In this document: positions 1,166 to 7,294 of the stretch, piece after piece
How positions within the stretch are numbered: the stretch's first letter is position 1
Layout of the letters: each line of letters begins with the position of its first letter
Assembly: GCA_018334855.1 (NCBI GenBank)
Contig: JAGXLE010000058.1
Location: 1-7,873 of the forward strand
DNA from: Desulfobacterales bacterium
GTDB taxonomy: Bacteria > Desulfobacterota > Desulfobacteria > Desulfobacterales > Desulfosalsimonadaceae
Direction of reading: 5' to 3'
Length of the DNA stretch: 7,873 bases
Program-made: the position numbers and the translations under genes
Notes under the pieces: model-generated
The model's input: only the letters and a program-made list of their open reading frames with translations
Told to the model about the DNA's origin: nothing
The model's database searches: none

Positions 1166-1180
1166 TTACAAAATTGTTAA
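1166..1180 (+). promoter_or_regulatory. Candidate activator site 1 upstream of glnD
   Basis: TTACAAAATTGTTAA is the first of two similar 15-bp motifs. Its centre is about 132 bp before the predicted sigma-54 start at 1305. It shares TACA-NNN-TTGT with the motif 21 bp downstream and with two motifs upstream of the second sigma-54 promoter. A 21-bp spacing puts the two copies on the same face of the helix, as expected for adjacent sites of a sigma-54 enhancer-binding protein. The role is inferred and the protein is unknown. Confidence 0.4.
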
Positions 1181-1186
1181 ATCAAC

Positions 1187-1201
1187 TTACATTTTTGTTT
1201 A
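1187..1201 (+). promoter_or_regulatory. Candidate activator site 2 upstream of glnD
   Basis: TTACATTTTTGTTTA is centred about 111 bp before the predicted start at 1305. Its TACATTTTTGT core recurs exactly at 7252-7262 and, inverted, at 7283-7293, both upstream of the other sigma-54 promoter of the window. I noticed no further copy elsewhere. Position and recurrence suggest an upstream activating sequence. Confidence 0.45.
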
Positions 1202-1239
1202 TTTCTTTTGTGTACCCGAAAAAATTTTGAAAATACAAC

Positions 1240-1261
1240 ATACTGTTTTTAAAAACAATAT
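1240..1261. repeat. 22-bp imperfect palindrome between activator sites and promoter
   Basis: The core TGTTTTTAAAAACA (1244-1257) is a perfect 14-bp palindrome. It extends to 22 bp with one mismatched pair (1243/1258). The centre lies about 55 bp before the predicted glnD start, between the candidate upstream sites and the -24 element. It could be an operator, a bending site or an IHF-like region. The AT-only centre makes a chance origin possible. Confidence 0.4.
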
Positions 1262-1278
1262 TTCATAAAACCAAAAAA

Positions 1279-1293
1279 TGGCACAGGAGTTGC
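1279..1293 (+). promoter_or_regulatory. Sigma-54 (RpoN) promoter of the glnD-amtB-glnB-glnA operon
   Basis: TGGCACAGGAGTTGC has the invariant GG (1280-1281) and GC (1292-1293) with the exact -24/-12 spacing. It also has the full TGGCAC and TTGC(T) blocks. Counting the C at 1293 as -12 puts the transcript start near 1305, which leaves a leader of only about 18 nt before glnD. Sigma-54 promoters need an ATPase activator, so this points to activator-dependent, probably nitrogen-status, control of the whole operon. Confidence 0.85.
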
Positions 1294-1309
1294 TTCTGTA
1301 AAAGCAAAC

Positions 1310-1314
1310 GGAGG
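1310..1314 (+). promoter_or_regulatory. Ribosome binding site deciding the glnD start
   Basis: GGAGG lies 8 nt before GTG 1323, which favours that codon. A second, weaker GAGG (1320-1323) lies 11 nt before the in-frame ATG at 1335, so a start four codons later cannot be excluded. Confidence 0.65.
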
Positions 1315-1322
1315 AATTAGAG

Positions 1323-5294: not shown

Positions 5295-5334
5295 TTTTCC
5301 CTGATAATATAACTCTTTAACAGGAGGAAGGATA

Positions 5335-5673
5335 ATGAAAAAAATAGAAGCCATAATCAAGCCCTTCAAACTCGACGATGTCCGCCAGGCATTAAACGAC
5401 ATAGGCATCCAGGGCATGACCATTACCGAGGTAAAGGGCTACGGGCGCCAGAAAGGGCACAAGGAGATATACCGGGGCGCGGAATACCTGGTGGATTTTA
5501 TGCCGAAAATCAAGCTCGAGATCGTGGTCCAGGCCGACCGGACCCAGGAAGTGATTGATACGGTAAGGGCCGCGGCCAATACCGGCAAGATCGGAGACGG
5601 AAAGATATTTGTGATTCCCCTTGAGCGGGTTATCAGGGTACGCACCGGAGAAACCGACGGGGAAGCGATATAG
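5335..5673 (+). CDS. glnB: PII nitrogen regulatory protein (GlnB/GlnK family)
   Basis: This 112-residue trimeric signal protein has exactly the standard PII length and is nearly collinear with E. coli GlnB from its first residues (MKKIEAIIKPFKLDDVR). The T-loop signature YRGAEY places the uridylylation target at Y51, which is conserved. The C-terminal signature (GKIGDGKIF...RVIRVRTGE) that helps bind ATP/ADP and 2-oxoglutarate is intact. It is expected to be modified by the GlnD encoded upstream and to bind the AmtB encoded next to it. The amtB linkage argues for a GlnK-type role, whereas the glnA linkage argues for GlnB. The two cannot be separated by sequence here. AGGAGG (5322-5327) with a 7-nt spacer supports the start. 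It is followed by glnA after 81 bp. Confidence 0.97.
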   Translation: MKKIEAIIKPFKLDDVRQALNDIGIQGMTITEVKGYGRQKGHKEIYRGAEYLVDFMPKIKLEIVVQADRTQEVIDTVRAAANTGKIGDGKIFVIPLERVIRVRTGETDGEAI

Positions 5674-5754
5674 AATGTCCAATAAGCCAATATCGGGATA
5701 AACAAAATGCAGGTTTCGAACTTAATCCGTTAATTTAACTCATAGGAGGAGACA

Positions 5755-7170
5755 ATGTCACAGCCAAAAAATGTACTGGATTTAATCAAACAGGAGGGCA
5801 TCCGGGTGGTGGATATCCGGTTTATGGACTTTCCGGGCATCTGGCAGCATTTTACAGTGCCGGTAAGCGAAATGGACGAGGATTCCTTCGAGGACGGCTA
5901 CGGGTTTGACGGCTCGAGCATCCGGGGCTGGCAGCCGATAAATGCAAGCGACATGCTCGTGGTCCCGGATCCGGCAACCGCCAAGATTGACCCGTTCTAC
6001 GATGAAAAGACCCTGGTGTTAATCGGCAACATCGTGGACCCGGTCACCAGGGAGGCATATTCCAGGGACCCGCGCCACGTGGCCCATAAGGCGGAAAACT
6101 ACCTGAGACAGAGCGGCATCGGGGACACGGCCTTTATCGGTCCGGAGGCAGAGTTTTTTATTTTTGATGATGTGCGGTTTGACTCGCAGCGAAACAAGTC
6201 CTTCTACATGGTCGATTCGGTGGAAGGGGTCTGGAACACCGGCCGCGACGAAAACCCCAACCTTGCATACAAGCCGCGCCACAAGGAGGGCTACTTTCCG
6301 GTGCCGCCCATGGACAAGGGCCAGGACATCCGCACGGAGATGATGCTGACCCTGGAAGACCTGGGCATTGACGTGGAATGCCAGCATCACGAGGTGGCCA
6401 CTGCCGGCCAGGGCGAAATCGACATGCGGTTCAAGCCGCTTATGGAGATGGGTGACCAGTTGGTGTGGTTTAAATACGTACTCAAAAACGTTGCCAGAAA
6501 ACATAACAAAACCGTGACTTTTATGCCCAAACCCCTGTTTGAGGACAACGGCACCGGGATGCACACACATGTCAGCATCTGGAGAGACGGAAATCCGCTG
6601 TTTGCAGGAGACAAGTACGCCGGCCTTTCGCAGGAGGCGTTATACGCCGTGGGCGGAATTTTAAAGCACTGCAAGGCTCTGTGCGCGTTTACAAATCCTA
6701 CGACAAATTCTTACAAGCGCCTGGTGCCCGGTTTTGAGGCTCCCGTGAACCTGGCCTATTCGAGCAGAAACCGGAGTGCCGCGGTCAGGATACCCATGTA
6801 TTCGGCCTCTCCCAAGGCAAAGCGCATAGAGTTCCGCACGCCTGATCCTTCCTGTAACGGATATCTGGCGTTTTCAGCCGTGCTCATGGCCGTGATAGAC
6901 GGAATCGAAAACAAGATAGATCCGGGCGATCCCATGGACAAAAACATCTATGATCTTCCGCCCGAGGAGCTCGCCCAGATTGATTCCGCGCCGGGTTCGC
7001 TTGACGAAGCCCTTGCAGCCCTGGCCGAAGACCATGAATTTCTGCTGAAGGGCGATGTGTTTACAAAAGATGTGATCGAGCGCTGGATCGAGTACAAGAC
7101 GGAAAACGAGGTCAATGCAGTCCAGCTCCGGCCCCATCCGCATGAGTTTTTTCTTTATTACGACATTTAG
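5755..7170 (+). CDS. glnA: Type I glutamine synthetase (GSI-beta type)
   Basis: This enzyme makes glutamine from glutamate, ammonia and ATP, and works as a cytoplasmic dodecamer. At 471 residues it matches the usual bacterial GSI length. The beta-grasp domain has the DGSSIRGW loop with D52. The catalytic domain carries EAEFFIF, the ATP-site block K259-P-L-F-E-D-N-G-T-G-M-H270, E328 (FEAP flap) and E359-F-R361. Y399 in KNIYDLPPEE is the conserved adenylylation tyrosine, which marks the adenylylated beta subtype. The adenylyltransferase GlnE is not in this window. One small oddity is E263, where many homologues have Gly (KPLFGDNG). AGGAGG (5744-5749) lies 5 nt before the ATG. It is the last gene of the operon, with a strong terminator 31 bp after its stop. 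No sigma-54 element is seen directly before it, so nitrogen control probably comes from the promoter ahead of glnD. Confidence 0.97.
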   Translation: MSQPKNVLDLIKQEGIRVVDIRFMDFPGIWQHFTVPVSEMDEDSFEDGYGFDGSSIRGWQPINASDMLVVPDPATAKIDPFYDEKTLVLIGNIVDPVTREAYSRDPRHVAHKAENYLRQSGIGDTAFIGPEAEFFIFDDVRFDSQRNKSFYMVDSVEGVWNTGRDENPNLAYKPRHKEGYFPVPPMDKGQDIRTEMMLTLEDLGIDVECQHHEVATAGQGEIDMRFKPLMEMGDQLVWFKYVLKNVARKHNKTVTFMPKPLFEDNGTGMHTHVSIWRDGNPLFAGDKYAGLSQEALYAVGGILKHCKALCAFTNPTTNSYKRLVPGFEAPVNLAYSSRNRSAAVRIPMYSASPKAKRIEFRTPDPSCNGYLAFSAVLMAVIDGIENKIDPGDPMDKNIYDLPPEELAQIDSAPGSLDEALAALAEDHEFLLKGDVFTKDVIERWIEYKTENEVNAVQLRPHPHEFFLYYDI

Positions 7171-7201
7171 CCCCCTCCCTCCCGCCCGCAAGGGCAGATG
7201 T

Positions 7202-7239
7202 AAAAAAGGCGGCCTTTTAAAGCGGGGCCGCCTTTTTTT
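7202..7239 (+). terminator. Rho-independent terminator of the glnD-glnA operon
   Basis: A 13-bp perfect stem is formed by AAAAAAGGCGGCC (7202-7214) and GGCCGCCTTTTTT (7226-7238). It has an 11-nt loop and a seven-T tract (7233-7239). The seven GC pairs next to the U-tract make it a strong intrinsic terminator. The A-run on the other side gives some capacity in reverse as well. Confidence 0.93.
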
Positions 7240-7250
7240 ATTCCCTGTGA

Positions 7251-7265
7251 TTACATTTTTGTAAT
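7251..7265 (+). promoter_or_regulatory. Candidate activator site 3 (upstream of second sigma-54 promoter)
   Basis: TTACATTTTTGTAAT is itself dyad-like (TTACA/TGTAA) and is centred about 147 bp before the predicted start at 7405. It shares the first 12 bases with the glnD site at 1187-1201. It forms the left arm of an 11-bp inverted repeat with the next site. Confidence 0.45.
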
Positions 7266-7293
7266 AATTGGCTTTTTGCCTAACAAAAATGTA
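7252..7293. repeat. 11-bp inverted repeat with a nested small hairpin
   Basis: The arms TACATTTTTGT (7252-7262) and ACAAAAATGTA (7283-7293) are perfect inverted copies separated by 20 bp. Inside the spacer GGC-TTTTT-GCC (7270-7280) forms a smaller nested stem. It may be a paired binding site for a DNA-binding protein or a structured RNA element. The recurrence of the arm sequence upstream of glnD favours the first. Confidence 0.7.
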
Positions 7294-7294
7294 G
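7280..7294 (-). promoter_or_regulatory. Candidate activator site 4 (inverted copy)
   Basis: Read on the minus strand this is CTACATTTTTGTTAG, with the same TACATTTTTGT core as sites 2 and 3. It is centred about 118 bp before the predicted start at 7405. Its distance to the promoter is close to that of glnD site 2 (111 bp). Confidence 0.42.

Follow-up and report, generated by a model that had tools for sequence, protein, structure and literature searches.

The window analysed here is one complete contig of 7873 bases (C66) from the assembly of a Desulfobacterales bacterium (G000; 1,633,927 bases in 287 contigs, 62% complete). It carries the ammonium-assimilation operon glnD-amtB-glnB-glnA, a gene for an EamA transporter upstream of that operon (by Pfam scan of the window), a predicted sigma-54 promoter ahead of glnD and a second one downstream of glnA, and two pairs of short palindromes, one pair upstream of each promoter (Table 1). 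These four palindromes, and the protein that may bind them, are the subject of this work; G-numbers below denote relatives' genomes (G000 being the window's own assembly) and L-numbers the DNA loci taken from them.

Table 1. Features of the window. Centres are given relative to the predicted starts.
Feature	Position	Strand	Sequence	Remarks
Distal palindrome, glnD-amtB-glnB-glnA operon	1166..1179	.	TTACAAAATTGTTA	Centre about -132; position kept in relatives
Proximal palindrome, same operon	1187..1200	.	TTACATTTTTGTTT	Centre about -111
Sigma-54 promoter -24/-12 of glnD	1279..1294	+	TGGCACAGGAGTTGCT	11/11 scored positions; matched in relatives' glnD upstream regions
glnD, PII uridylyltransferase	1323..3932	+		Pfam: GlnD_UR_UTase, HD, ACT
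amtB, ammonium transporter	3983..5284	+		PF00909
glnB, PII signal protein	5335..5673	+		PF00543
glnA, glutamine synthetase	5755..7170	+		PF00120, PF03951
Distal palindrome, second promoter	7251..7264	.	TTACATTTTTGTAA	Perfect; centre about -147
Proximal palindrome, second promoter	7281..7294	.	TAACAAAAATGTAG	Minus strand CTACATTTTTGTTA; centre about -117
Second sigma-54 promoter	7379..7394	+	TGGCATGCTCCTTGCG	9/11 scored positions
Second amtB, first codons	7521..7540	+	ATGAAAACATTGCTAT	As in L056; by comparison with L051 and L056

A sequence-only reading of this stretch had described four sites, three of them sharing the 11-mer TACATTTTTGT exactly, with a -24/-12 element downstream of each pair; the four sites, the shared 11-mer and both elements are present in the window sequence, and the site centres lie at the distances from the predicted starts that were then given. 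The unit of all four sites is a 14-bp inverted repeat, TTACA-W4-TGTAA, and because the unit is itself an inverted repeat the label 'inverted' once attached to the fourth site has little meaning. The two palindromes ahead of glnD are 21 bp apart, with 92 bp from the start of the proximal one to the -24 box; those of the second promoter are 30 bp apart. The claim that the motif has no other copy stands for the 11-mer, whose 3 copies in the entire assembly all fall inside the window (reversed control, 0), but not for the degenerate pattern YTACANNNTTGT, which matches the window 5 times where shuffles predict 0.06; none of 200 shuffles gave so many. The fifth match, at 3710-3721 within the glnD coding region, is probably due to chance.

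Conservation upstream of orthologous glnD operons, which the same reading had named as a test, is borne out across the relatives. GlnD homologs were found in 59 of 60 relatives' genomes (some as weak matches only), and 40 glnD loci from 40 genomes, oriented by script, gave together with the window 41 upstream regions, from which three were left out: L073 and L084 as too short, and L081 (G058) for want of a recognizable sigma-54 promoter. When palindromes are counted that score 10 of 12 or better and lie no more than 200 bp ahead of the -24 box, at least one is present at 37 of the 38 remaining promoters, window included (200 dinucleotide shuffles: mean 4.2, maximum 9), and at least two at 25 of them (same number of shuffles: mean 0.26, maximum 2). 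Nine further glnD loci, mostly from more distant relatives, were scanned later (L219, a repeat of G058, being excluded). A sigma-54 promoter is present at five, of which four also have a palindrome (L221, L223, L225, and L142, the second glnD of G045), bringing the total to 41 of 43 glnD promoters that have a sigma-54 element. The five glnD loci that lack a sigma-54 promoter also lack the motif core: those of G058 (L081/L219), G055 (L218), G059 (L220), G040 (L226) and G048 (L224, one of two glnD loci in that genome). Conservation of the motif reaches genomes whose GlnD is 50-85% identical. L084, excluded from the count, does have sites in its 176 bp.

The geometry is conserved as well. At 32 of the 38 glnD promoters the start of a site falls 88-94 bp ahead of the -24 box, and the 30 gaps between neighbouring sites measure 21 bp in 18 cases and 29-31 bp in 7, i.e. 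about two and three helical turns; in the 63 sites the core ACA...TGT is nearly invariant, only A/T is found at the middle four positions, and the outer positions hold T in 59 sites and A in 29. The sites thus stand within the 80-200 bp upstream of -24/-12 typical of sigma-54 enhancers and, like such enhancers, are tandem inverted repeats in helical phase. The NtrC enhancers of Escherichia coli glnAp2, from which sigma-54 drives glnA, are two sites at about -110 and -140, also in helical phase; the paired positions are similar here, whereas the palindrome differs from what we take to be the NtrC consensus. Perfect matches to WATCAANNNNTTR, presumably the consensus of integration host factor (IHF), occur in 11 of 40 loops between enhancer and promoter (mononucleotide shuffles: mean 0.66, maximum 3), nine of the 11 at -41/-42, i.e. 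about 42 bp upstream of -24; the best IHF-like match in the window's own loop has 2 mismatches. An IHF site at this place is frequent among sigma-54 enhancers without being required.

A scan of the assembly and its relatives for the motif near -24/-12 elements, suggested when the sites were first described, points the same way. The composite pattern used for it (site core, 65-95 bp, -24/-12) has 95 matches in 47 of the 60 relatives' genomes against 1 for the reversed control, and across the phylum it is found in 120 of 395 genomes, where the control matches 4 times. Nor is the motif equally common at other sigma-54 promoters, the outcome that was to have told against it: when 30 of the 33 exact TGGCACN5TTGCW sites of three genomes (G008, G019, G009) were examined, strict palindromes accompanied 3, all at nitrogen genes (two glnD and one type III glutamine synthetase (GSIII), named by eye), one more had the weaker match TTACAGACTTGTAT, and 26 had none, several of these palindrome-free spacers being equally AT-rich (0.73-0.78). 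Lone matches to TTACAWWWWTGT in four genomes are mildly enriched (45 against 18 reversed), so that lone sites are weakly informative and pairs strongly so; TWACANNNNTGTWA with one mismatch is too loose for use, with 110 matches per strand in the whole assembly against 130 in the control.

The second promoter of the window has counterparts in its genus. In G006 (L051) the distances from glnA are 82 and 112 bases for the palindromes and 210 for the promoter, compared with 81, 111 and 209 in the window, and in G004 (L056) a matching module is present farther from glnA; in both genomes the module precedes a second amtB, whose product in L056 was confirmed as AmtB. The window has the start codon of this gene at 7521 but diverges to unrelated sequence a few codons later, from about 7537; intact copies exist in relatives. 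The second amtB is thus broken in the window, probably through a mobile element that inserted there or through a join made in assembly, and a minus-strand frame at 7562-7873, with weak similarity to the DnaA C terminus below the Pfam cutoff, is possibly the end of a mobile element. Nineteen other relatives, checked over 1300 bases past glnA or as far as the locus reached, showed no such module; one of the 19 has a single degenerate match there. The leader of the second amtB also holds CCTTTCAGGTCnGnGCATC (window 7410-7428), downstream of the predicted start and conserved in three members of the genus, which is possibly an RNA element.

A candidate for the protein that would bind these sites is encoded convergently beside glnA in G036 and G037: a GAF-AAA+-Fis protein of about 507 residues. 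An ortholog occurs in 51 of the 60 relatives (58-81% identity, 100% being the source; three are fragments), or in 52 if the tally is taken at E 1e-100, which adds G026; the searches scored the best 25 candidates per genome in one case and the best 3 in the other, and a scan of genome contigs gave at least 80 loci among the matches listed. The gene's neighbours include glnA (L156, L174), glnD (L169, L237), amtB (L335, L343, L389), amtB with glutamate synthase (GOGAT) genes (L321) and, in the window's own genus, glnB-glnE (e.g. L175, where a family scan confirmed PII and GlnE). The palindrome itself recurs within 200 bp upstream of the activator gene at 23 of 43 loci (shuffle mean 1.6, maximum 6), the 43 being L156-L171, L319-L344 and L237, all outside the window's family, with L172-L185 left out; in L156-L171 a site stands within 700 bp upstream of the gene in 13 of 16.

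The candidate has the domain layout of NifA, namely GAF, AAA+ with GAFTGA, and a Fis helix-turn-helix (HTH), as seen in two proteins. In the three proteins scanned it also passes, narrowly, the NifA equivalog model TIGR01817 (538-546 bits, cutoff 529), the best match ending before the HTH. It is not linked to nitrogen-fixation genes, the neighbours seen being glnA, glnD, glnB-glnE and amtB, and we therefore file it as NifA-like rather than as NifA; nifH is above cutoff in only 11 of the 60 relatives, the activator ortholog being present in 51. In a tree, one branch (support 97/90) separates the activator from NifA, and nif-linked paralogs from G002, a member of the window's genus, and from G027, of its family, fall on the NifA side of that branch. 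With 22 candidates scored per genome and a top score of 502 bits, none of the 60 relatives reaches the cutoff of the NtrC model TIGR01818 (558.6 bits), which is weak evidence of absence because this strict cutoff is passed in only 1 of 14 control genomes. The earlier suggestion of an activator other than NtrC thus finds support, with this NifA-family protein as the best candidate and no NtrC at the NCBIfam cutoff in 60 relatives.

The outer base of the half-site covaries with one residue of the recognition helix, T-E-R going with C-TACA and T-V/L/I-R with T-TACA. Of 85 distinct activator loci, 46 offered a half-site that could be used, no farther than 300 bp upstream or 700 bp downstream; as labelled by script, C is the majority base at 10 of the 13 loci of E type and at 5 of the 33 remaining ones (p 1.4e-4), and after relabelling L239 and L421, unlabelled by script but V-T-E-R by eye, at 11 of 15 against 4 of 31 (p 8.8e-5), both p-values being optimistic because the sequences are related. 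Of the indirect evidence for contact between this protein and this site, this covariation is the strongest. When relatives are restricted to those with completeness of 90% or more and contamination of 5% or less, the composite pattern is present in 28 of the 34 that have an activator match and in 0 of the 3 that have none (G055, G056, G058; p 0.011).

The genes that follow such modules belong largely to nitrogen assimilation. Genome-wide matches in four relatives place paired sites before amtB-glnB (L136), before the operon for glutamate synthase (L137, L143) and before a gene for a porin-like protein (L138-L140; in one case with glnK-amtB behind it), and a single site before the second glnD (L142); the remaining lone matches inspected lie mostly in or near unrelated genes. 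Elsewhere in relatives, paired sites also precede glnA and a single one precedes GSIII. Family scans identify AmtB in L389, L056 and L242, GlnA in L392, GSIII in L244 and the large subunit of glutamate synthase as the second gene of L143; because family matches are weak or absent, the first gene of the GOGAT operon (GATase_6 below cutoff, L137) and the porin-like gene (one weak TorF match in L393, none in L140) are named by eye. The porin-like protein, which is secreted and recurs behind these sites (L138, L139, L140, L393), may be a channel through which nitrogen is scavenged across the outer membrane. The window's assembly has a third module of sites and promoter, on contig C108 (L216, 169-302), which reaches the contig edge with its downstream gene missing; the context suggests GOGAT as that gene. 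The C108 module adjoins a gene for a phosphopantetheinyl transferase, and a similar neighbour was seen by eye near the GOGAT operon of G004. Upstream of GOGAT in L143 (G004) the paired palindromes have no recognizable -24/-12 element within 260 bp, and the sequence between sites and gene resembles a repeat that is also seen after glnA in L056.

Twenty loci of the wider order and phylum, picked by a composite match or an activator gene and not at random, extend this list; their genes were named by eye except where a family scan was run. Seven have amtB behind the module (with glnB as well in one), three have genes for periplasmic binding proteins (two of them alike, one of these beside a related activator), two have glnD, and GOGAT, glnA, a porin-like gene and a sensor-kinase-like gene occur once each; no fitting gene was seen in 4. 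The nifH promoter of G053 (L234, G053:C177) has three palindromes 30 bp apart and a sigma-54 promoter, whereas of four other nifH loci two have a sigma-54 element with degenerate matches only and two have neither, so that nif genes can join the regulon but need not. In two metagenome-assembled genomes (MAGs) of Treponema (L242, L243), an activator 47-48% identical is encoded directly upstream of amtB-glnK, with CTACA-W4-TGTAG or GTACA-W4-TGTAA and a sigma-54 promoter between the activator gene and amtB.

On the strength of their conserved position, pairing and specificity, the four sites are best described as predicted sites of a sigma-54 enhancer-binding protein, as the sequence-only reading had it. 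We put at roughly three in four the probability that they are two pairs of a conserved palindrome serving as enhancer sites of a NifA-family activator, for glnD-amtB-glnB-glnA and for the second amtB; this NifA-like protein likely takes the place that NtrC holds in E. coli. Upon nitrogen shortage, the activator would bind and switch on both the operon and the second amtB: a dimer of the GAF-AAA+-Fis protein is predicted to occupy each palindrome; the spacing of 21 or 30-31 bp would set neighbouring dimers on the same face of the DNA and so make assembly of the AAA+ ring possible; and the AT-rich stretch toward the promoter would bend, probably with IHF in many relatives, to let the ring reach RNA polymerase-sigma-54 at -24/-12. 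If AnfA and NifA are a guide, the nitrogen signal would probably come from PII (GlnB, which GlnD modifies) through its action on the GAF domain.

Several observations weigh against this reading. They are i) searches did not find the activator gene in the assembly that holds the window (62% complete), nor in G005 (85% complete and of the window's genus), G054 (79%) and five others of the 60, and G026 has only a 39% paralog; ii) in L172-L185, 13 of which are of the window's family, a site within 700 bp upstream of the activator gene occurs in 0 of 14; iii) the sole exception among the 38 glnD promoters, L087 (G057), reads ATACATTTTTGTCC, just below threshold, L222 (G052) has a glnD sigma-54 promoter without the palindrome, and glnD in G059 and G040, and one of the two glnD loci in G048, lack both promoter and motif, yet the activator is present in these genomes; iv) four composite matches (G009:C69, G017:C676, G024:C124, G032:C151) look like one conserved coding stretch, and therefore not all 95 are promoters; v) the covariation between helix and base draws on related sequences and on 46 of the 85 activator loci; and vi) across the phylum, 69 of the 163 genomes that have the activator show the composite pattern, as do 51 of the 232 that lack it (odds ratio 2.6, p 2e-5), a moderate co-occurrence partly because the E-value cut excludes relatives of the activator with 41-45% identity, such as the one (42%) beside the module of G134 (L380), a genome scored as lacking it. 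To these must be added published binding data for a different regulator, the response-regulator activator DVU3220 of Desulfovibrio vulgaris, which binds the upstream region of DVU1231-1234 by electrophoretic mobility shift assay (PMC3333781) and for which, according to PMC4641369, no motif was predicted.

These data are the starting point for the alternative that the sites are enhancers but that the activator is a two-component response regulator, NtrC-like and perhaps an ortholog of DVU3220. DVU3220 has been offered, without a motif, as a nitrogen regulator of sulfate reducers (PMC3333781, PMC4641369) and is conserved also in Desulfobacterium and Desulfatibacillum (PMC3333781); DVU1231-1234 is the amtB-glnB-glnD region, with genes for an ammonium transporter, PII and uridylyltransferase (PMC3333781). 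Relatives hold many response regulators of the NtrC type, a kinase-regulator pair follows glnA in L088 (G054), and a divergent NtrC would be missed, since the TIGR01818 cutoff passes only 1 of the 14 control genomes; three match the model at all, Caulobacter, which is known to have NtrC (PMC10274813), among them. The palindrome recurs, however, upstream of the NifA-like gene; none scoring at least 10.5 is found in the 16 PF00158 loci of the window's assembly (several cut by contig ends); and among the loci examined early, five have an activator gene, the NifA-like one adjoining glnA in two. With covariation and gene linkage also favouring the NifA-like protein, we consider a response regulator unlikely.

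Still more improbable, in our judgment, is a regulator that does not act through sigma-54, whether a repressor or a co-regulator of the GlnR/TnrA kind. Its appeal is that the first pair in the window reads TGTTA-N7-TTACA, and that pairs 21 bp apart contain TGTNA-N7-TNACA, which we take to be the TnrA/GlnR box; this box, however, arises by construction from two palindromes 21 bp apart, and it is missing from pairs 29-31 bp apart and from single sites, so that the 14-bp palindrome must be regarded as the conserved unit. On the layout of the sites, GlnR/TnrA boxes were accordingly rejected as a by-product of spacing. Sigma-54 promoters, moreover, need an activator (PMC4641369), and the near-fixed distance to -24 fits one. 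That the sites are a chance likeness in AT-rich spacers, or one promoter copied within a single genome, is hardly credible: the spacers are AT-rich (0.79 in the window's loop) and the 11-mer is common to both promoters, but dinucleotide shuffles and reversed-pattern controls fall far below the observed counts, and the motif is conserved in relatives with GlnD of 50-85% identity. The composite control, the glnD-promoter shuffles and the sigma-54-site control refute it.

The NifA-like activator has a forerunner in DVU1949 of Desulfovibrio vulgaris, a one-component sigma-54 activator whose predicted targets, listed under 'nitrogen metabolism and transport', include DVU1231-1233 (an amtB-glnB operon), DVU1258, DVU3392, DVU3290-3292 and others, and which is predicted to control its own operon, including iorAB in four genomes (Kazakov et al. 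2015, PMC4641369). A GAF-AAA+-HTH relative of our activator in Desulfonatronum (L247) is likewise linked to ior (its neighbour IorA is above the cutoff of TIGR03336) and falls on the nitrogen-assimilation side of the tree; it is only about 45% identical to the activator and has other gene neighbours. From the ior context we infer that L247 is the DVU1949 ortholog, the likeness being one of predicted targets and ior context and not of compared motifs. VnfA and AnfA are also of the NifA family, and the motif found for VnfA1 of Azotobacter vinelandii by chromatin immunoprecipitation sequencing, GT(T/A)C-N6-GTAC, present twice in most promoters (PMC9542535), has the same 14-bp layout as TTAC-N6-GTAA here; those proteins, however, switch on alternative nitrogenases, whereas the genes linked here are those of ammonium assimilation. 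PII proteins control AnfA, with the GAF domain named in a section heading (PMC12093980). Elsewhere, an RpoN promoter drives glnB-glnA in Geobacter (PMC2725144), and a reconstructed NtrC regulon includes deltaproteobacteria (PMC5343134). The motif, its phylum-wide spread and the base-residue code were not found in the literature searched (open-licence papers, mostly at the level of listings), and because the DVU1949 regulon foreshadows the finding its novelty is moderate.

More tentatively, and with somewhat less than even confidence, we suggest that across Desulfobacterota and some Spirochaetes (the Treponema MAGs) the master switch of ammonium assimilation may be a NifA-family one-component activator rather than NtrB/NtrC, reading PII through its GAF domain and binding pairs of YTACA-W4-TGTAR with a helix code in which E or V/L specifies an outer C or T, and that the NifA of nitrogen fixation could be an offshoot of this older nitrogen-assimilation regulator. 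Given a specific binding word, a specific regulator gene and a base-residue code, nitrogen control can be put to a direct test in a cultured sulfate reducer. The three together suggest how NifA-type and general nitrogen regulators are related, and they warn against reading nitrogen fixation into every nifA assignment in these genomes.

As to other elements, an Rfam scan of the window gave nothing above gathering thresholds, and a rule-based search for terminators in 7100-7600 detected none, though by eye an inverted repeat with a run of T can be made out after glnA, at about 7203-7240.

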